From Micavibrio sp. (GTDB taxonomy: Bacteria; Pseudomonadota; Alphaproteobacteria; Micavibrionales; UBA9664), in the NCBI GenBank assembly GCA_002699085.1, contig PAAR01000012.1, positions 1 to 64,000 of the forward strand: a stretch of 64,000 bases of DNA. The letters run 5' to 3'. A program made the translations under genes and the position numbers. The notes beneath the pieces are model-generated. The model saw only the letters and a program-made list of their open reading frames with translations, was not told where the DNA came from and searched no databases. Shown here in pieces: positions 35,194 to 63,738 of the stretch; the stretch's first letter is position 1, and every line of letters begins with the position of its first letter.

Positions 35194-35895
35194 TCAACGT
35201 GCTATAAGCACCTTAACAAACTGATACGTTCCGCTACTTGATTTACGGCAATATACTGGCTTTCCCTCATATCCAACCCCATCATCATTAAGCGTATCTG
35301 CCACTGGAGCAGCAGCAAAGTTGCCTACAAAAGCAATACTAGCAGCCGTATTATCTTCCTCAAAAACATCACCGTCATCATTAGAAACACCCACAGATCT
35401 ATTAATCGCCATACAAACATCTTTTGTTATAAAATTAATCTGCAAAAGCAGCTCTGGTAAGGATTCATTGCCAATGCCAACCATTTGGTAACCTGATTGG
35501 ATATACGGAAGGGCATAAGTACTATTAGCTGAATATGCGGAATCCAATGCCTTAATATTGATAGATTTATAATAAATACCGCCACCATTCGGATGATAAA
35601 CACGATTCTTTGTATCCGCACATGACACATGCTCAAATGCTGCATTACCTCCTGGATACTGATCTATATCAAAACAAAGATCATTCTCGCTTACGCCACG
35701 TGCCATCATGCGCTGTATAGCTATCTCAACCGATTTAGCGTAATCCAGAATTTCATCGGCATAAAGACCCGCTTGATCTTTAGAAATATCACTACCACCA
35801 CTACGCATACCTTGTGTAACGGCATAGCTTAAGGCACCAAATAATGCCACAGCGATGAGAATAATAAACAGCACATTCCCTTTTTCTACTCTCAT
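35194..35895 (-). CDS. Pilin-like secreted protein, 233 aa
   Basis: A 233-residue protein with a pilin-like N-terminus: a short basic head MRVEKG, then NVLFIILIAVALFGALSYAVTQG, a single hydrophobic helix. It resembles class III or TadE-like pilins cleaved after Gly, but lacks the Glu at position 5 of classical type IV pilins. The remainder is a soluble, Cys-containing extracytoplasmic domain (cysteines in DLCFDI, VSCADT, KDVCMAI, VYCRKS). It is the last gene of the dotM-X-dotL operon, 2 bases after dotL. Proteins with this type of N-terminus are known only as hypotheticals to me. A role as a surface or channel component is an inference from position. Confidence 0.7.
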   Translation of the reverse strand: MRVEKGNVLFIILIAVALFGALSYAVTQGMRSGGSDISKDQAGLYADEILDYAKSVEIAIQRMMARGVSENDLCFDIDQYPGGNAAFEHVSCADTKNRVYHPNGGGIYYKSINIKALDSAYSANSTYALPYIQSGYQMVGIGNESLPELLLQINFITKDVCMAINRSVGVSNDDGDVFEEDNTAASIAFVGNFAAAPVADTLNDDGVGYEGKPVYCRKSSSGTYQFVKVLIAR

Positions 35896-35897
35896 AA

Positions 35898-38306
35898 TTA
35901 ACGCCCTTTCGGATTAATATTTTTAGCCGTAGGCATACCTGATTTCTTTTCTTGTTCTTGTGCCAATTTCGGCTCACCAAACAAGCCTTCACGAATATTA
36001 TCTGCCGCACCCATTAAAATATTCATCACATCATCATTCAACCCCTCGGGCAGCTGATATTCGCCATTTTGTGCTAATGCCTCAACAGCAGCTTCTGCAG
36101 AATATTGCCCTGCCTGCGCCATTTTAAGCTTACGGGCATCGCCGGCACCGCCTGTACGACCTTCTTCACCCTCTTCGTCATCCTCCCCAACAAGGTCATC
36201 CCAGCTCTCTGATTTTTCCTTGATTTCTTCACCATCTGGACCAACTTTCACAGCAGTCTTTTCTTTAACAGGGCTAGAGACTTGTTCTTTCTTCTCTGGC
36301 ACTGCTTCTATATCATCTAAATCAATATTATCTGTTTTCACATAGCTATGAATAACCGCCATAGCGGCAGAATCGGCCATATCCAATTGCTGACCTCTAG
36401 CCATCACAAAACCCTGCTCAAGAGCTTCTAACTCTGGAGAAATCTCATGTTTGCTTTCTGCATTCATCGCCGTCCAATTTTTCGATACCATGCGATCTCG
36501 TAAGGCCGTAATACCTGGAATTTTGCGTAAATCAGCATCTTGTGGCGCAGGCAAGGGTATTAGTTTTTGTACACGCATTGCGCGGGCAAAGCCTGGATTT
36601 GTATAAAGCCCACGCATCTCTACGGCTTCAGGGCCGAACATAATAACACTTTCACCTTCTTTGAAATATTTTAAACCATCATAAGAAGCTTTTTTACGGA
36701 ACTGGATGCTGGCGTTACGCGCATCTGAATACCCGCCTGTTAACGATCCCGCTTCAAGATTAAAGTTAGATGCCTCTGCGACAATAATATCAGGAACAGA
36801 GTTCTTAAAGAATTCTTGTGTTTGTGTAGGGTCTTCAAGTTTACCGAAGATCTTAATGTTACAGTTACCGGCAATAGAGCGTGCTTCTTCCTTCACACGC
36901 TTTTCTAAGGCTGGTAGATCCTGTGCTGAAAAAACAAGCGAGAAGCCCAATGAACGCGCTTGCGCCGCCATAACACCCATACCAGAGGCCACATAATAAC
37001 CCACCTCATCAAAAACAGACATAAAAGGGGTTATAGAATGCGTCGGTTTATTCTCAATAATCGCCGCTGCCGACCCTTCAACAGTTGACCCTAATGTCGA
37101 GCCCATCATCCCCTTTAGAGTTGCAGAAACGATCTTACCCAGATTGGCGATCTCATCTGATGATTTCTCCAGCGCAGGAATAAGCACAATCAAAATACGG
37201 CGATTAAGCACAATATCGACCATATCAATATCGGCATGGGGCGCATCAAAAATATAGCCGTAATCATCACCTAAAGATTGCAATGACCTTGTAAACTGCA
37301 TTGATAGGTAACCATGTTGTTGACGAACGACTTGAGTATCGACCATTGGTACATCTGGTCCAGCTGGCTTTTCTTGCCCATCATCATCAAAAGCAGCGTC
37401 AACAAATCCTGGTAATGTACGTAAATATCCTTTGAGTGAATCTGTTAGCTTTTCTGGCACAGCTTTGTCACGAGATAATTTAATAATCGCATCTAAATCT
37501 AAGCTACGGCGAATAGAACTGACAGACATCGGCACATCTTGATTATCACGCTTCCATGTCAAAATCGGCATGATCGAGCCAATTAATGACACTGCACGCT
37601 CTTTCCACATCGCATTATCGCCTTCGGCATCAGGCATCAATGAGACCAACATATTCGTTAAGTAACCAGCCGAACCAACAGAAAACGGGTTCATTGTATT
37701 TGACGGTGCTTTGGTATCGGAATTACCTGTCATATAGTTTAAAACAAATAAATCATCATCACGGCCAAAACGCCTTACCAGAGAAGATAGATTAGACCAG
37801 AGATCTGTGTCTGCTTTACCATCAATATAAACAAAACCAGAAGCCCAACAGAGCGCATTGGTAACCATTGACTTTAAGCCTTCTGTTTTACCAGACCCTG
37901 TCGTACCAAGATAAAGAATATGTGTTCTAATATCCGAATTAGTAAACCACACCTCTTCGTTGGTTTTTTTATCATTCCCCATAAAGAGAATACCTTCAGA
38001 TTTTCCAGAATGACCGCCACCTTCATTATTTTTATCTTTGATTTTATGATATAAAGACATCGGCAATTTAAACGGTAAATCAAAGCCTAAGCGCATAATA
38101 GCGATATAACTAATAAACATCACAATGAAGATAATATCTAAGAAATAAACCATTTGCGGCACTAGAAAGATCAGCGACACCAAAACAACACAGACCATGA
38201 GGAAATTGTCAGGCTTGGCAAACCAATCTCCCACACGCACATAAATTGACCGTGTATCGGCCAACATCCGTGTATAGCTCTGGGAGTATTTCTTATCGAT
38301 AGCCAT
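35898..38306 (-). CDS. dotL: DotL/IcmO-like type IVB secretion coupling ATPase
   Basis: An 802-residue type IV coupling protein. Two or three N-terminal membrane helices (about 35-72) are followed by a P-loop ATPase domain with Walker A GTTGSGKTEG at 134-143 and Walker B SVFDEVGYYVASG. Additional hallmarks are SAQDLPALEKRVKEEARSIAGNCN and GVMAAQARSLGFSLVF. The C-terminal 200 residues are acidic and flexible, as in Legionella DotL where this tail binds chaperones. The preceding operon genes are a DotM-like protein and a protein of unknown function. The specific DotL assignment, rather than TraD/VirD4 in general, rests on the architecture and the DotM neighbour. Confidence 0.85.
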   Translation of the reverse strand: MAIDKKYSQSYTRMLADTRSIYVRVGDWFAKPDNFLMVCVVLVSLIFLVPQMVYFLDIIFIVMFISYIAIMRLGFDLPFKLPMSLYHKIKDKNNEGGGHSGKSEGILFMGNDKKTNEEVWFTNSDIRTHILYLGTTGSGKTEGLKSMVTNALCWASGFVYIDGKADTDLWSNLSSLVRRFGRDDDLFVLNYMTGNSDTKAPSNTMNPFSVGSAGYLTNMLVSLMPDAEGDNAMWKERAVSLIGSIMPILTWKRDNQDVPMSVSSIRRSLDLDAIIKLSRDKAVPEKLTDSLKGYLRTLPGFVDAAFDDDGQEKPAGPDVPMVDTQVVRQQHGYLSMQFTRSLQSLGDDYGYIFDAPHADIDMVDIVLNRRILIVLIPALEKSSDEIANLGKIVSATLKGMMGSTLGSTVEGSAAAIIENKPTHSITPFMSVFDEVGYYVASGMGVMAAQARSLGFSLVFSAQDLPALEKRVKEEARSIAGNCNIKIFGKLEDPTQTQEFFKNSVPDIIVAEASNFNLEAGSLTGGYSDARNASIQFRKKASYDGLKYFKEGESVIMFGPEAVEMRGLYTNPGFARAMRVQKLIPLPAPQDADLRKIPGITALRDRMVSKNWTAMNAESKHEISPELEALEQGFVMARGQQLDMADSAAMAVIHSYVKTDNIDLDDIEAVPEKKEQVSSPVKEKTAVKVGPDGEEIKEKSESWDDLVGEDDEEGEEGRTGGAGDARKLKMAQAGQYSAEAAVEALAQNGEYQLPEGLNDDVMNILMGAADNIREGLFGEPKLAQEQEKKSGMPTAKNINPKGR

Positions 38307-38330
38307 TTAAATAATATACCTTATATTTGT

Positions 38331-38867
38331 TTATCTCTGGTTAAGGTATTCTTCTGCTGATAATGGTACACCAGCCTTTGGTTCATCTGCACTTGGAGGC
38401 ATTTGTTTTTCTGATTCCGCCATATCATTATTTTGCACTGACATTTCTGACAGAGCTATATTTGACTGCATTGCGTTCTTATATACAGCAACACCTACGA
38501 CGAGTAGCAGCAAAATAAAAAGGATTTTAAATACTGGAAATCCACCCATCCGATTTTGAATAATCACTGGACTCTGTTGTGTGCTCGTAACACCTTCAAG
38601 TGCCTTTGTTGTCTTCACTAGGGCACGTAAAGCTTTTCCACGATTATCATAGGTGGCAATTACTTTCTTTGCTCCCTTATCACCAGTCCGTACCAGATCA
38701 TAACACCCTAATGCCTTACTTTCTTCTATTTCAAACACACAGCCCGCCGATTCTGCCAGATCAAGTGACCAAACACTTGGCTTTTCCGCATCTGGGAAAG
38801 ATAAAACAAGCTGATTGCCAGCCACTTTTGCTGTTGTTTTATAACCACCTGTAATACATGCCAACAT
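38331..38867 (-). CDS. Unknown protein between dotM and dotL (single membrane helix, 178 aa)
   Basis: A 178-residue protein, not recognised. The N-terminal 95 residues are mostly beta strands ending in a helix (NRGKALRALVKTTKALEGV), which suggests a small PH-like domain; this is only a visual impression. A single membrane helix follows (about 112-130, FKILFILLLLVVGVAVY). The C-terminal 45 residues are polar, with a KAGVPLSAEEYLNQR end. It lies between the dotM-like and dotL-like genes, 24 bases from each, on the same strand, so it is probably part of the same coupling complex. A cytoplasmic N-domain with an outward tail is the likely topology. Confidence 0.68.
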   Translation of the reverse strand: MLACITGGYKTTAKVAGNQLVLSFPDAEKPSVWSLDLAESAGCVFEIEESKALGCYDLVRTGDKGAKKVIATYDNRGKALRALVKTTKALEGVTSTQQSPVIIQNRMGGFPVFKILFILLLLVVGVAVYKNAMQSNIALSEMSVQNNDMAESEKQMPPSADEPKAGVPLSAEEYLNQR

Positions 38868-38891
38868 ATATTGCTCCTTATTATCTTTAAA

Positions 38892-40154
38892 TTATTTACT
38901 ACCCGCAGGCTTTAAAACACCCTTAGTTTTTTGATTATCGTTACTTTTACCATAGTCTACTTCTGGAATTGGGCGAGAATTCGGACTCTCTATATACGCA
39001 ATCAAAGAATCTACAGCCTCATCAACTTTTGGTACAGGAATTGGACGTGATGTCCGTTTCTCATTCTTATAATGTGCCATCGAACCAAGGCTTTCCATAT
39101 GGAATGTCTGCTTGCCGATATTATTAAGGGCGTACCATAAAGCACGGTCGTATCCCCTAAGCCATAAAAACTGTGCTGGGGCTAAAACACCACCTTGAGA
39201 ACGTGCATAATCCAGCGCACGCATCATCGCCGTTGTTTCATACGCATGTTGGCGCATAATATTATATGTCCCTCTACTTTTTTGTTTATTACCAAGAATT
39301 TTATGTGCTTCCGCTTTCAAGGTTGGGTCTTTTAAGAAAGATAAGCCCCCTTTAAAAGACCAACAAGCCGCTAAGCGACCAAATAGCTCATCAGATTTTT
39401 CTCTTTGACGAGACGCTTTTAAGATAAACCCTGCCAATATAATCTGTTTATAGGGTGCCAAAGCTTTAGCACCACGCCACCTGCCGCCTAATTGTTTCGT
39501 AAAGGCCTTGATCGCTGCTTCACGGTCAATTTTTTTATCTGGCATTGGCACACGATTATACGCCACCCATTCCTCAGGACTCAGCGCTTCAGAAAAGCTT
39601 GGCAATTCAATCGGAACAGGATCCCCAGGTGAGCGTGCTGGTTGTTTCGCTGGATTAAATTCTATAAATGGCTTGATATGCGGGAAACTTTTCGCTTGTT
39701 CTTCCAGCAAGCCATCTAAATTGAGTTTTCGTCTATATTTTGTCCGTGGAGAGAACTTATAGACATGCAGTCCCATCAAAATAAGCATGACCATGACAAA
39801 ATATTTATACGGTGTTAACGCGACCTCTGTTAGAACAGTTAAGTCTTTAAACTTATAAAATTCGCCACGTGTTTTTGGTAAATAATCACGCCATGCACCA
39901 AAAAATCGTGGATCACCAATTTGCCCCCGATGGCGATTACGCAAATCAACCAAATCTTGCGTGACTGGCATATTAATTGCCGCATTATTTTCTGTCCAGA
40001 GTGAGGCTATTTCTATTTGACCTTGACGAAGATAGGCAACACCACGAGAAATTTGCGGATGAAAGAAAAACCACAATAAAAAGGCAAAACCAGCAACAGC
40101 CACCGCAAATAGCGTAACTGCAATTATCCCCTCATCTCCATTTTTATCTGCCAT
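38892..40154 (-). CDS. dotM: DotM/IcmP-like type IVB secretion protein
   Basis: A 420-residue protein with two N-terminal membrane helices (about 8-30 and 115-132) and a large cytoplasmic C-domain, the architecture of DotM/IcmP and of TrbA from IncI plasmids. Regions matching the family are LRQGQIEIASLW near residue 42, and LSPEEWVAYNRVPMPDKKIDREAAIKAFTKQLGGRW. In the C-domain HAYETTAMMRALDYARSQGGVLAPAQFLWLRGYDRALWYALN matches the segment that carries surface-exposed arginines for substrate recognition. It is the first gene of the operon and divergent from lptD. DotM works with DotL in the coupling complex; the core channel genes are not in this window. Confidence 0.85.
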   Translation of the reverse strand: MADKNGDEGIIAVTLFAVAVAGFAFLLWFFFHPQISRGVAYLRQGQIEIASLWTENNAAINMPVTQDLVDLRNRHRGQIGDPRFFGAWRDYLPKTRGEFYKFKDLTVLTEVALTPYKYFVMVMLILMGLHVYKFSPRTKYRRKLNLDGLLEEQAKSFPHIKPFIEFNPAKQPARSPGDPVPIELPSFSEALSPEEWVAYNRVPMPDKKIDREAAIKAFTKQLGGRWRGAKALAPYKQIILAGFILKASRQREKSDELFGRLAACWSFKGGLSFLKDPTLKAEAHKILGNKQKSRGTYNIMRQHAYETTAMMRALDYARSQGGVLAPAQFLWLRGYDRALWYALNNIGKQTFHMESLGSMAHYKNEKRTSRPIPVPKVDEAVDSLIAYIESPNSRPIPEVDYGKSNDNQKTKGVLKPAGSK

Positions 40155-57786: not shown

Positions 57787-59604
57787 ATGGGTGAACAAAA
57801 CAGCACAAAAAATATAGATACGAATAAAGGACTACAAAAAAGACTGTTCTGGTTCTTTATGATGTACCAGTTTCGCCCTAAATACCGATGGTTTCGAATT
57901 ATTGTTCTGCTTTGTGCGACAATATCCACCATCGCTTGGGATGTGTTTGTTCCTTATCAATTTAAAAATCTCGTTGATTTTATCACGCCGCTTTCTACGC
58001 CTATTAGTGGCACTATATGGGCAGATGTCTTTACTATTTTTATAGCCATGGTTGCAGGGTACCTCGTCGGCTTGGTCTGTGAAATCCTTTTAACCAATAT
58101 GGTTTATCTATCTACGCCCCTTATAATGCGAGATTTAGAAAATGATGCTTTTAGGAAACTACAAAGCTTCTCTTATGATTTTTACGCCAATAGCTTTGTC
58201 GGCAGTCTCGTTGCTCAATTAAGACGTTATGGTGATGCCTACCTCAATTTAGAAGTTGAGATCACAGAAAATATTTTACGTCTTGGGGTGAAAGTCATCG
58301 CTGTCGGCACAGCTATATACGTGTTTTCTCCATCTGCCTTTTTGCCTGTCATAATATGGGCCATCACTTTTATTGCAGCCATTAGCTATTTACTAAACCG
58401 CAAAATGACCCATGACAGGCGACACTCTCTGTTAGATTCAAAAGTAACAGCAACATTGGCTGATAGTGTCTCAAACTTCCTAACGGTTAAAGTGTTTGGT
58501 CGTGAAAACGATGAATTCGATGCCTTCAAAGACATTAATCATCGCAAAACACGCTCTATGCAATATGGCTGGGCATGGAGCTCAGCGACTTTTACAGTAC
58601 AACATACGCTCAATGTGATTATTCAAATCATGGTGCTTTATTTCGCTCTGACGCTTTGGTCTAAAGGAGAAATGAGCTTAGGAACGGTTGTGTTCTTACA
58701 AATGCTTTTGGCTAATATCAGTAAATCTCTCGTTGATATCGGCAATACGATGAAAAATGTTTTCCGTGCGCTCGCCAAAGCAGAAGAAATGTTTGAACTG
58801 ATGGAGCTCAAGCCAGATCTCCTTGATCCGAAACGACCCCAAAAATCAAAGATCAGCAAAGGGAAAATCGTTTTTGATGATCTGACTTTTAAATATGGTG
58901 AAGGGCATGATGTTTTTTCCCATTTTGACCTAACGATCAAAGCAGGGCAGCGTGTTGGTTTGGTTGGCCATTCTGGTGCAGGGAAAAGCTCCTTCGTAAA
59001 ACTGCTCTTGCGCTTTATGGATCCGCAATCTGGTGAAATTAAAATAGATGGGCAAGCCATTCACAAAATCACCCAAAAATCGTTACGAGAAGCTATCAGC
59101 TATGTCCCGCAAGAACCTACTCTATTCCACCGTTCTTTATGGGATAATATCGCCTATGGTGCTCCGAATGCGTCAGAAGCTGCTATCAAGAAAGTCATTA
59201 GAGATTCTTACCTGACCGAGTTAATCGAACGCTTACCCAATGGTGTTCAAACGATGGTGGGCGAGCGGGGCGTCAAATTATCAGGCGGTGAACGTCAACG
59301 TGTGGCCATTGCCCGTGCCATGCTCAAGAAATCGCCTATTCTTATTTTAGATGAAGCCACCAGCTCACTGGATAGCACCAGCGAGATCTATATCCAGAAA
59401 GCCTTTGCTACGCTGATGAAAGGGCGCACAACAATCGTCATAGCGCACAGGCTTTCGACCATTGCTGGTCTTGATCGTATTTTAGTGCTTGATGATGGAA
59501 AAATTGTTGAAGACGGCACGCATAGTGATCTGGTTAAAAAGCGGGGCGGCCATTACGCCAAGCTTTATAAAAATCAACGTGACGGCATGCTCATTGATGA
59601 TTAA
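57787..59604 (+). CDS. ABC exporter (fused permease and ATPase)
   Basis: A 605-residue half-transporter of the ABCB/MsbA-like type. About six membrane helices occupy residues 30-330. The nucleotide-binding domain has Walker A GHSGAGKSSFVKLLL, the Q-loop YVPQEPTLFHRSLWDNIAYG, the signature KLSGGERQRVAIARAM, Walker B ILILDEATSSLD and the switch VIAHRLSTIAGLDRI. It is a homodimeric exporter of unknown substrate; its family often exports lipids or drugs. It starts 35 bases from radA on the opposite strand and overlaps the heparinase-like gene by 4 bp at the 3' end. Confidence 0.91.
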   Translation: MGEQNSTKNIDTNKGLQKRLFWFFMMYQFRPKYRWFRIIVLLCATISTIAWDVFVPYQFKNLVDFITPLSTPISGTIWADVFTIFIAMVAGYLVGLVCEILLTNMVYLSTPLIMRDLENDAFRKLQSFSYDFYANSFVGSLVAQLRRYGDAYLNLEVEITENILRLGVKVIAVGTAIYVFSPSAFLPVIIWAITFIAAISYLLNRKMTHDRRHSLLDSKVTATLADSVSNFLTVKVFGRENDEFDAFKDINHRKTRSMQYGWAWSSATFTVQHTLNVIIQIMVLYFALTLWSKGEMSLGTVVFLQMLLANISKSLVDIGNTMKNVFRALAKAEEMFELMELKPDLLDPKRPQKSKISKGKIVFDDLTFKYGEGHDVFSHFDLTIKAGQRVGLVGHSGAGKSSFVKLLLRFMDPQSGEIKIDGQAIHKITQKSLREAISYVPQEPTLFHRSLWDNIAYGAPNASEAAIKKVIRDSYLTELIERLPNGVQTMVGERGVKLSGGERQRVAIARAMLKKSPILILDEATSSLDSTSEIYIQKAFATLMKGRTTIVIAHRLSTIAGLDRILVLDDGKIVEDGTHSDLVKKRGGHYAKLYKNQRDGMLIDD

Positions 59605-61241
59605 CCTTCACGCTGTAAAGCCCACTTAACCGTCGTCTCTTTGACATTGCTTTTAGTACGGCCTGTTAGGACAATCTGCTGTGTTTTACGTGGGTTACAG
59701 CCATCACCCAGATAAATACTATCCTCCACAGTCAAGATGGCGCCTTTTGTAAAGAATCTCCAGCCAATCCCTGTCCGTGTCTTAACGAGTACTTCTGTCC
59801 CATTATTAACCAGTGAAGCCTTCACTGTTGGATGTAAATGGAACCGTATCGCAAAATCATGTGAATATTCGGTTTCAATCGTCTGTGTGAGCGTATCCTC
59901 GCCCCGTAAATCATCACCCGTTTGATCTAAAAACAAACTTCTATGATGAATTAACCCATTTACTGTGTAATAGCCATCATGGCTAGCGGATACCAATGTA
60001 CCTTGCTTGATATCTTCACGGTGAACTTTTGTTTCCAACGCCATACGACCAATATAATTATTCTCTTTAATTTCAAAGGCATTACGATGATCGACAGTTA
60101 ATGCCGTATGTGCGGGTGTACTTCTCAATGCGTACTGCCAGTTTTTATCGGTTGGATGGGCACCACAATTGCTAAAAATACGGTCTTTACCATATGAAAA
60201 TTCAAAAGCCAAAGGACTGGCGTGCAGGCCACGTGTATCAGCACTATGTGGTGCCTTACCTGTATCCAAAATCGCTACCGCCTTGCCTAAATTTAATCTC
60301 TCATAACCCGTTACAGGCAACGAATTCCATGTTTTTCCTCGCACGCCGCCTCTGGTAATAACGAGACCTAAGCTGGCTTCATTGCCTTCTTGGGTATTTT
60401 GGAACAAGGCCAATTTATTGTCGTTATGACGGAAAAAACGAAGTGCCGGGATACCACGATCAAGAGCATGCTCTATAGCAGCGGGCAATGGATAATTCGC
60501 CGATTTTAACGCCGTTTTTAAATCCAAAATGATTTTCAATGCCTCAACAAGGTCTTGCGGTGAACGTGTCACAAAGCCACCATCCGACAAAATTAATTTT
60601 GGCAGTGCCTCATCAAGCAAGCTTAAGCCTTTTTCGAGCTTTGTTTCTTGGCTTTGAAGGGCAATACCACCGTAAATATAGCCAATCAACGCATGTAAGT
60701 GCTCAAATGAGTAGTAATTCTCAGGTAAACAAGCACCTAGATGCTTGAATTGCTTATTAAGGCTATTAAAAAACAGGTCTTGGAAGTGATCGTCTGCACT
60801 GGCCCCAAAAAAGCTGTAAAGTTTAATCCAATTCGTAATTCTGGCACCGAGTAAATCAGACCGCCATGCAAAACGGTTGTATTTTGGATGACGCTCGATC
60901 CAGCTCCGCACTGAGTCACGTGCTTTCAAACGACCCATATCACCGCCCAGTGCCTTTAAATCACGTAACCAGTCAAAACTTTGCAAATGTTCGGCATGTT
61001 TTTCAAAAGGGATGTCTTCATCCCACAAACTGTCTTGGGCTTGCCACAGTGCACCCTTGCAATCAAGCGCATTATTGCAAAACCAGCGGCCACGCCCAGA
61101 ATCACCTGGCCAATTATCACTTAAATCCACGACAAAACGGGCGCATTCCTGTTGTGATAAAAACCAATCATAGACAGGACTACGCTGTACAACTTGTAAG
61201 GCGTGTTCTTTAATATTTTCAATGAACCCCAATTTTAACAC
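59601..61241 (-). CDS. Heparinase II/III-family protein
   Basis: A 546-residue protein of the heparinase II/III-like family found in most alphaproteobacteria. The N-terminal alpha/alpha-toroid half shows WLRDLKALGGDMGRLKARDSVRSWIERHPKYNRFAWRSDLLGARITNWIKLYSFF. The C-terminal beta half contains SPLAFEFSYGKDRIFSNCGAHP and TPAHTALTVDHRNAFEI. No signal peptide is visible. It may act on a polysaccharide, but no substrate is known. It is 3 bases after rpe on the same strand, which is the usual rpe-heparinase pair. Confidence 0.9.
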   Translation of the reverse strand: MLKLGFIENIKEHALQVVQRSPVYDWFLSQQECARFVVDLSDNWPGDSGRGRWFCNNALDCKGALWQAQDSLWDEDIPFEKHAEHLQSFDWLRDLKALGGDMGRLKARDSVRSWIERHPKYNRFAWRSDLLGARITNWIKLYSFFGASADDHFQDLFFNSLNKQFKHLGACLPENYYSFEHLHALIGYIYGGIALQSQETKLEKGLSLLDEALPKLILSDGGFVTRSPQDLVEALKIILDLKTALKSANYPLPAAIEHALDRGIPALRFFRHNDNKLALFQNTQEGNEASLGLVITRGGVRGKTWNSLPVTGYERLNLGKAVAILDTGKAPHSADTRGLHASPLAFEFSYGKDRIFSNCGAHPTDKNWQYALRSTPAHTALTVDHRNAFEIKENNYIGRMALETKVHREDIKQGTLVSASHDGYYTVNGLIHHRSLFLDQTGDDLRGEDTLTQTIETEYSHDFAIRFHLHPTVKASLVNNGTEVLVKTRTGIGWRFFTKGAILTVEDSIYLGDGCNPRKTQQIVLTGRTKSNVKETTVKWALQREG

Positions 61242-62019: not shown

Positions 62020-63738
62020 ATGGCTGATAAAACCCAAAAACTCTATGAAAAAGCCTTAGAACACTATCATTCTGGGCAAGTTGACTCAGCAGAGAAGATC
62101 TTTAAAAAAATCGTGATCCAGAATCCAAAACACGGAGAAACTCTTTTTGCCTTAGGCAAAATAGCGATGCAGAAACAACGTTTTGTTCTAGCTGACCAAC
62201 ATTTTAAAAAGCTGCTTTCTTATTATCCTAATCATGCCGATAGCTGGACAAATTTAGGGCTGATTTATTATCAATATTCAAAAAATATCCCAGAAAGCAT
62301 CAGTGCTTTCAAAAAAGCCTTAGAATTGGGGGCAAATCCAGCCCCGATTTATCTGTATCTAGCAGATATATTTAAAAATTCTGGCGATTTAAATGATGCA
62401 CGTGAGATGTACGAAAAAGCTATCGAAACTCAACCTACTATGGCACAAGCCCATCTAGGTTTGGCAAATGTTTTGATTTCACTTCATGCGCTTGAATCCG
62501 CTAAAAACCACTTTATTCAGGCCTTAACACTCACTCCACATAATGCGGATATCGTTCTTAATCTTATAACTTTGGCAGAGCTACAGAATCTAACAATTGC
62601 TTCCTATATTTCCGAAGATTTAAGAACAAAACTTTCTGGCTTAGGACAACAGTTTTTAAAGGCACATTTGGCGCAAAAGAACGGAGATATAGAAGCAGCT
62701 ATTAGTATCTTTAAAGATTTAGCGCAAAACGACTATCTAGGGGTTGAAATTTACCGTTGTTTCACATTAGCCGAGCTCTATGACAAGACAGCACAATATG
62801 AGCTAGCTTTTGAGTATATGACACGCGCTAATGAGCTTCAAAGCCTCACACAACGTGCGCAATTAATTAACGCCACATATTACCCTGCACTGCTATCAAC
62901 CATTGATACAGCGGTAAGCAATGCTCAATTTATTCAAGACGTACAGGCACGTACACAAAATAAATCTGTCACAAAACAACCTATTTTTATTGTGGGCTTC
63001 CCTCGCTCTGGAACAACATTGACGGGGCGTATTCTCTCTATGATTAAGAATGTCCATGTTAATGATGAGAGGTCGGTTCTAGGCCAATTAAGCCAAACAA
63101 TCCAACATGATTATAATCTTAATTACCCTCAAGATTTACCAAAACTTTCAGCACAGCAATGTGATGATCTAAGACAACAATATTGGCAAGCACATCAAAA
63201 GGCATCTAGCTGGGTTGATACACCGATTTTTATTGATAAATTTCCTTTAAATCTTATCCATCTACCTTTGATTTACACGCTTTTTCCTAAATCAAAAATT
63301 ATTTTTGTCAAACGACACCCACTTGATTCAATTCTTAGCGCCTTAATGCAAAATTTTCATCTTAATGAAGCGATGATTCACCTTATGAAACCAGAACAAG
63401 CCGCTTCATTATACAAAGAGGTGTTATCAATATGGTTTAAAGTAAGTGAAGTTTTACCGCTAGAAATTCATATCATTACCTATGAGAATATCGTCGATAA
63501 TTTTGACGACGAGGTCAAAGCGCTTTTGTCATTCTTAGGCCTAGAATGGGAAGAAAATATCAAAGATTTCTATAAGAAAAAGCAGGATAGCTTCCAGACC
63601 ATTACACCAAGTGCCACGCAAATAAGCCAAAAGCTATATAGCTCTTCAAAACAACGTTGGCGACATTACAAACAACAATTAGAGCCAGTTGTACCAATCT
63701 TAAGCCCTTTAATTAAGAAATTAGGCTATACGGACTAA
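62020..63738 (+). CDS. TPR-repeat protein fused to a sulfotransferase domain
   Basis: A 572-residue fusion. Residues about 1-200 form at least five tetratricopeptide repeats (YEKALEHYHSGQVDSAEKIF, FALGKIAMQKQRFVLADQHF, SWTNLGLIYYQ, APIYLYLADIFKNSGDLNDA, AQAHLGLANVLISLHALESA). The C-terminal half is a sulfotransferase with the PAPS 5'-phosphate loop IFIVGFPRSGTTLTGRIL and the 3'-phosphate site FPKSKIIFVKRHPLDSILSAL. It would transfer sulfate from PAPS to an unknown acceptor. It runs against its neighbours, lying between rpe and rsmB, which are normally adjacent, and overlaps rsmB by 18 bp. There is no signal peptide. Confidence 0.9.
   Translation: MADKTQKLYEKALEHYHSGQVDSAEKIFKKIVIQNPKHGETLFALGKIAMQKQRFVLADQHFKKLLSYYPNHADSWTNLGLIYYQYSKNIPESISAFKKALELGANPAPIYLYLADIFKNSGDLNDAREMYEKAIETQPTMAQAHLGLANVLISLHALESAKNHFIQALTLTPHNADIVLNLITLAELQNLTIASYISEDLRTKLSGLGQQFLKAHLAQKNGDIEAAISIFKDLAQNDYLGVEIYRCFTLAELYDKTAQYELAFEYMTRANELQSLTQRAQLINATYYPALLSTIDTAVSNAQFIQDVQARTQNKSVTKQPIFIVGFPRSGTTLTGRILSMIKNVHVNDERSVLGQLSQTIQHDYNLNYPQDLPKLSAQQCDDLRQQYWQAHQKASSWVDTPIFIDKFPLNLIHLPLIYTLFPKSKIIFVKRHPLDSILSALMQNFHLNEAMIHLMKPEQAASLYKEVLSIWFKVSEVLPLEIHIITYENIVDNFDDEVKALLSFLGLEWEENIKDFYKKKQDSFQTITPSATQISQKLYSSSKQRWRHYKQQLEPVVPILSPLIKKLGYTD

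Follow-up and report, generated by a model that had tools for sequence, protein, structure and literature searches.

A conserved single-pass membrane protein encoded between dotM and dotL in a probable type IVB coupling operon of the Micavibrio order

A four-gene operon with a proposed third membrane subunit

The operon described here probably encodes the coupling complex of a chromosomal type IVB secretion system that extends across the Micavibrio order. Its second gene, X, would supply a third membrane subunit tying this complex to the channel, and the transported substrates would more likely be proteins. The group is here called the Micavibrio order, which we take to correspond to the formal name Micavibrionales. 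The window, that is, the whole 64,000-nucleotide stretch analysed, represents contig C12 of a 1.89 Mb genome (97% complete, 31 contigs) of a Micavibrio-type alphaproteobacterium. The four same-strand open reading frames proposed by the initial annotation are all present on the minus strand, at the coordinates listed below and with lengths of 420, 178, 802 and 233 aa. They follow the order dotM-X-dotL-pilin-like gene with intergenic gaps of 24, 24 and 2 nt, and the operon is flanked upstream by a divergent gene for LptD and downstream by that for SspB. The features of the operon are as follows.

38892..40154, minus strand: dotM (icmP/trbA type), 420 aa; DotM_C domain at residues 213-384, two N-terminal membrane helices by eye
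38331..38867, minus strand: gene X, 178 aa; lies between dotM and dotL, proposed as a third membrane subunit
38583..38834, minus strand: X residues 12-95, PH-like domain predicted to be cytoplasmic; modelled by AlphaFold with six strands and a helix
38472..38534, minus strand: X residues 112-132, single membrane helix; model helix, hydropathy maximum, positive-inside charge in most of 76 sequences
38343..38372, minus strand: X residues 166-175, C-terminal motif GVPLSAEEYL; family form GxPxSA[DE]x[FL][LF]
35898..38306, minus strand: dotL (icmO/trbC type), coupling ATPase, 802 aa; Walker A GTTGSGKT
35979..36041, minus strand: DotL residues 756-776, partly conserved helix-like stretch; candidate adaptor docking site
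35194..35895, minus strand: pilin-like gene, 233 aa; hydrophobic N-helix without the GFxxxE signature, invariant C161 and C216

DotM and DotL are divergent members of the type IVB coupling protein families

By their sequence matches, the first and third proteins of the operon are true type IVB coupling proteins, which bears out the reading of this locus as a type IVB coupling operon. The 420-residue protein matches the Pfam family DotM_C (PF23127) at 7.3e-49, with 166.7 bits against a gathering score of 27, and the solved Legionella DotM (PDB 6sz9_B) at 2.8e-27. Its match to NCBIfam NF033890, the equivalog for Legionella-type DotM/IcmP, has an E-value of 3.4e-52 and 177.7 bits, under the cut-off of 230; judged by these profiles, it is a member of the DotM family but lies outside the NF033890 equivalog. 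DotL aligns through residues 3-634 with the solved Legionella DotL (PDB 6sz9_A, 2.9e-135, 632 residues aligned) and has Pfam TraG-D_C and TrwB_AAD_bind matches above cut-off. It also matches NCBIfam NF041447 at 1.2e-112, yet below the cut-off. Since both proteins stay under their NCBIfam equivalog cut-offs, they are divergent family members.

These profile searches agree with the earlier DotM/IcmP-like and DotL/IcmO-like calls. As for the contrary picture that had been raised, a TraD-type ATPase next to a 420-residue protein unlike DotM, the latter protein is DotM-like, and in blastp the ATPase scores 457 bits with Piscirickettsia DotL and 212 bits with R64 TrbC, the match to F TraD having a non-significant E-value of 2.2. 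Only pairwise DotL scores are used here, because in the DotL tree R64 TrbC, F TraD and Teredinibacter sit on long branches and many forks are open.

Legionella DotM has been described as binding acidic effector tails, with a highly conserved R314 (PMC5802825). In an alignment by eye, this residue corresponds to R337 of the present protein, and arginine occupies the position in all 71 DotM rows. The remainder of the Legionella basic patch is only partly retained: by eye, R196 is replaced by D210, R217 by A231 and R315 by A338. Conservation of R314/R337 together with replacement of R196, R217 and R315 suggests that the receptor is kept but that its specificity is probably different. The DotL tail, compared in 73 DotL sequences plus that of the window (tails of 30 listed), is variable past approximately residue 660, except for the partly conserved stretch 756-776. 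This stretch could be where an adaptor different from IcmW docks.

Gene X keeps a fixed position next to dotM and dotL

X has no Pfam or NCBIfam family above cut-off. A DotL search limited to one genome per species yielded 79 named loci, from assemblies that are Micavibrio-named or unplaced and mostly alphaproteobacterial; the nearest DotL locus is that of Micavibrio sp. SAT33 (PALX01000005.1). DotM, X and DotL are collinear in 75 of these 79 loci, which excludes a chance origin of the arrangement and speaks for X as a part of the coupling complex, a role that had been suggested for it. Among the four remaining loci, three lie on contigs that begin inside X or DotL (L076, L108 and L111), and the fourth (L100) has X and DotL, with DotM absent within about 5 kb. 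The median gaps, measured over 74 loci after leaving out L062 with its split X hits, are 21 nt from DotM to X and 24.5 nt from X to DotL.

The association is also found beyond the order. In a class-wide draw of 385 genomes, DotM was present in 14, ten of them outside the order, and in nine of these ten the open reading frame directly after DotM matched the X profile. The E-values were 2e-20 to 5e-8 in five genomes, then 2e-6, 2e-4, 0.007 and 0.03; the search was small, and the position after DotM was counted together with the score. In the other genome (G359) X is absent and, by eye, DotM adjoins a parB-like gene. Taken at the level of sequence and gene order, X is a real, undescribed family that accompanies DotM and DotL in the Alphaproteobacteria covered by the sampling. 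A tblastn search with one X sequence against 72,556 plasmids, which is a weak test, gave no match at E 1.

X combines a PH-like model domain, a membrane helix and a conserved C-terminal motif

The AlphaFold model of X (mean pLDDT 81) contains a domain of six strands and a helix at residues 12-95, mostly with pLDDT 94-97, after which come the membrane helix (112-132), a tail of low confidence and, at the C-terminus, a short helix. The layout anticipated from the sequence, with a PH-like N-domain, one membrane helix and a polar tail, is thus recovered in the model, though weakly for the PH part. Indeed, the best Foldseek matches are PH and PTB domains, the first of them a PH domain with a non-significant E-value of 0.023. 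With VIA, the best Z of 5.8 is to a PTB domain (rmsd 3.6, 79 aligned) and a PH, PTB or FERM domain is named in the titles of 23 of 50 rows, Z values of such size being able to mirror a common arrangement. A search of the X profile against solved structures gave nothing under E 0.17. PH domains have seven strands. The predicted domain of X shares its strand and helix layout with PH, PTB and FERM-F3 domains, but it has six strands in the model, Z values below 6 and no sequence relation to PH-like domains. The PH likeness of residues 12-95 therein amounts to a weak fold resemblance of the model.

Conservation was counted in an alignment (A2) from which rows shorter than 151 aa or starting past model position 24 were left out. 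W33 and A171 are each found in 75 of the 76 rows and G166 in 68; A171 is followed by D or E in 74 rows, and position 175 is L or F in all of them. Column counts are given here, as searches by pattern (37/76, and 48/76 with a looser form) were too strict. The ending is kept outside the order, for instance as SADDVL or ADDYL. Furthermore, in 59 of the 76 sequences the net charge is higher before the membrane helix than after it; in 12 the two are equal, and in 5 it is lower before the helix. This pattern favours an orientation with the N-terminus inside and a periplasmic tail.

Most of the machine is encoded on another contig

The claim that the window holds no core channel genes agrees with the open reading frames inspected, a subset of those in the window, and a search elsewhere in the genome, which had been proposed, located core genes on contig C1. 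DotH (first located by Pfam), DotI, DotC, IcmT and DotN are above curated cut-offs there, and DotB, DotD and DotG are best matches below cut-off, as is the match to DotF. The DotB candidate scores 405 bits as DotB against 251 as TraJ. DotN has 105.2 bits with NF038221 against a cut-off of 100 and matches PDB 5x1h at 8e-23. A 995-aa VirB4-like protein is called DotO chiefly from its position, because its named-family score is weak. Inspection by eye showed no obvious candidate for DotA/TraY. DotN and IcmW had both been considered unrecognisable in the window; for DotN this is true of the window only, given its match on C1, but it stands for IcmW (NCBIfam NF038222), which is over cut-off in none of the 142 order genomes, the weak matches resembling those in 6 of 14 control genomes. 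A DsbG-like protein is also encoded, on contig C1 rather than at the TrbB position between DotM and DotL.

In the source genome, the type IVB core locus (C1:20001-60000; L034, L035) is split in two by a set of R64-type pilus genes. This set encodes PilS-, PilR-, PilQ-, PilO-, PilN- and TcpQ/PilL-like proteins, and the PilS-like protein carries a prepilin motif. At C1:39051-43995, in the place of R64 PilV, three genes in a row encode large, long-tailed proteins whose N-termini are pilin-like; by eye, these look like minor pilins. R64-type pilus genes also occur in genome G122, and were unmatched in the stretches taken from G047 and G124. Adjoining DotI are proteins of unknown family with signal-peptide-like N-termini, of 627 and 523 aa (L034:14542-17993 and L178:5017-14700), and five related large open reading frames stand in a row in genome G112. 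It is possible that these large DotI-adjoining proteins are secreted parts of the machine.

The type IVB system is a core trait of the Micavibrio order

A chromosomal type IVB system is a near-universal, core trait of the Micavibrio order. DotL and DotH were each found in 132 of 142 order genomes and DotM_C in 125, covering all 54 of 54 genera; the pilin-like family was found in 116 and X, with a single-sequence query, in 115. Among the best 98 genomes, the counts are 94 for DotL, 93 for DotH, 90 for DotM, 86 for X and 83 for the pilin-like family. NCBI taxonomy (taxid 213485) places Micavibrio under Bdellovibrionota; most assemblies used here are labelled alphaproteobacterial, and Micavibrio is called alphaproteobacterial in the available text of a review (PMC10482364).

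Genome G047, a single contig of 2,481,983 bp presumed to be that of M. aeruginosavorus ARL-13, carries DotM, X, DotL and the pilin-like gene at 407,779-413,076. Homologues of the source-genome proteins assigned to DotO, DotN, DotF, DotG, DotH, DotI, IcmT, DotB, DotC and DotD lie at 2,422,381-2,446,771, a region that also holds a DsbG-like homologue. Most of a type IVB system is therefore encoded in the presumed ARL-13 genome, contrary to the ARL-13 genome paper, the accessible text of which states that there was no evidence of a type IV system (PMC3189940). A link between the type IVB system and GMV0902/0903, pili genes given in the same paper as highly expressed, was considered and rejected, their position, estimated from the genome size and the numbering of the genes, being about 0.9 Mb against 2.43 Mb for DotH. 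In the literature searched, mostly outside subscription journals, we found no report of a type IVB system in the Micavibrio lineage.

A model for the coupling complex and its alternatives

In the reading that we favour, DotL would be the motor and DotM a membrane-anchored substrate receptor, and DotN, supplied from the other contig, would complete a Legionella-like coupling complex. The PH-like domain of X would lie in the cytoplasm beside DotM and DotL, where it may bind either of them. The single helix of X would cross the inner membrane with its two ends on the predicted sides, and the conserved motif at the end of the periplasmic tail could dock on a periplasmic part of the channel. Since X would then span from the PH-like cytoplasmic domain to the docked periplasmic motif, the coupling complex would be tied to the channel. 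Substrates, for which proteins are likelier than DNA, would be chosen by DotM, DotN and an adaptor at the DotL tail instead of IcmW, and the pilin-like protein would be an accessory drawn from a larger paralogous family. The DotL motor, the DotM receptor and DotN are common to the source genome and the Legionella Dot/Icm coupling complex (DotL-DotM-DotN-DotY-DotZ-IcmSW). The latter, in the descriptions available, is without an X-like membrane subunit, whereas X would be an additional, membrane-anchored component here; DotY and DotZ have been described as unique to Legionella (PMC7280309).

It is unlikely that the operon instead serves conjugative DNA transfer in the manner of the IncI proteins TrbA-TrbB-TrbC, with X as the counterpart of TrbB. 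The trbA-trbB-trbC order of IncI/R64 is the same, a single gene separating the homologues of DotM and DotL, the C1 locus carries the R64-like pil gene set described above, and X resembles the N-terminal part of TrbB by eye in the layout of domain, helix and membrane segment. However, TrbB of the related plasmid pCTX-M3 has been described as carrying a thioredoxin-like domain (PMC6112013), which X lacks, and sequence comparison did not support X as a TrbB homologue, at hhalign probabilities of 2.3 (TrbB N-terminal profile) and 0.3, even though the two match in position and layout. DotL is far closer to a Piscirickettsia DotL than to R64 TrbC, DotN is present, and, in contrast to a mobile element, the machine occurs in almost all genomes of the order and nearly always as a single copy. 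Furthermore, the PF03432 (MOBP) relaxase is absent from the source genome and was found in only 55 of the 142 order genomes, or 41 of the 98 good genomes against 93 for DotH. With this relaxase missing here and limited to such a subset, and the machine nearly ubiquitous, export of proteins is more probable than conjugation.

The place between DotM and DotL is variously filled elsewhere. A Pseudomonas plasmid encodes there a 263-aa protein, rejected as a homologue of X (hhalign 0.3); Piscirickettsia has the order DotL-ORF-DotM with an unrelated 167-aa protein, and in a Teredinibacter plasmid DotM and DotL are adjacent with nothing between them. Five alphaproteobacterial plasmids have an unnamed open reading frame in this place. 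In the MPF_I-type plasmids of this class (Komagataeibacter, Roseomonas, Methylocella, Methylosinus) it is 86-201 aa long and has one hydrophobic stretch by eye, as well as an ending of its own, FGL plus a few residues, in four cases (L153-L156). Unlike X, these proteins show no PH-like domain by eye, and there is no detectable sequence homology between them and X. Since varied, non-homologous proteins sit between DotM and DotL in these systems, placing a single-pass protein there may be a recurrent solution.

We regard as quite improbable the idea that X is an assembly or stability factor, a chaperone for DotM or DotL that is not itself incorporated into the completed machine. It is common for assembly-factor genes to adjoin those of their clients, and X is indeed small and single-pass. 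On the other hand, the tail-end segment of X is predicted to be on the periplasmic side, and since this far end is as conserved as the domain core, a fixed docking site for X, as in the favoured model, fits better than client folding.

The pilin-like gene, a probable optional accessory

Pfam and NCBIfam gave no family for the pilin-like protein up to E 1, and TIGR02532 did not find a prepilin motif in it. Its model (pLDDT 88) has a broken N-helix and a small sheet, and the top two Foldseek matches are Vibrio TCP pilin chains, with non-significant E-values of 0.084 and 0.13. The hydrophobic N-helix and four cysteine regions recognised earlier were found again, as an N-helix and four cysteines, two of which (C161 and C216) are invariant in a 52-row alignment that leaves out L072, a near-copy of L070. 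Of 74 loci, 48 have the gene after DotL and 26 lack it there, loci with less than 700 nt after DotL being left out of this count. Counting the gene itself, the source genome has six related places, one of which contains an internal stop. We regard the operon's pilin-like gene as an optional accessory, a paralogue within a larger family.

That a surface fibre is the main product of the operon, with the pilin-like protein exported or assembled by the machine and X helping to load it, is very improbable: the position after DotL in 48 loci, the best Foldseek matches being type IVb pilin chains, and the R64-type pilus locus of the source genome and G122 are in its favour, but the gene is missing beside DotL in the other 26 loci, X is retained in loci without it, five related places exist elsewhere in the source genome, and the prepilin motif that TIGR02532 does not find here is present in the PilS-like protein of C1. 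The earlier suggestion of a fibre delivered by the machine thus received no direct support. In the source genome, members of the pilin-like family occur at 35194-35895 of the window and on contigs C21, C17, C31 and C1. The family, which is without the prepilin glutamate, is often represented 6-9 times in a genome of the order, and a few genomes have about 20 copies.

Implications for predation and for the study of coupling complexes

A more tentative and rather doubtful extension is that epibiotic predators of the Micavibrio lineage inject proteins into their prey through the type IVB machine, X being an ancestral alphaproteobacterial subunit whose periplasmic motif locks the motor onto the channel. 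If true, a Dot/Icm-like system directed at prey would exist in a lineage with a model genome that, as reported, shows no type IV secretion system. Since the presumed ARL-13 genome encodes a type IVB system, there is now a testable candidate for the means by which these predators reach into their prey.

Little is understood of the way in which a coupling complex contacts its channel. According to the available text of a review (PMC12857230), just one contact of the coupling protein with the machine has been characterised for R388, and without molecular detail. X, an unnamed protein family whose short and strongly conserved motif is predicted to lie in the periplasm, offers a genetically simple handle on this question.

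Near the end of the window, a heparinase-like protein (59601-61241) and a TPR-sulfotransferase (62020-63738) are encoded, perhaps as parts of a polysaccharide locus.
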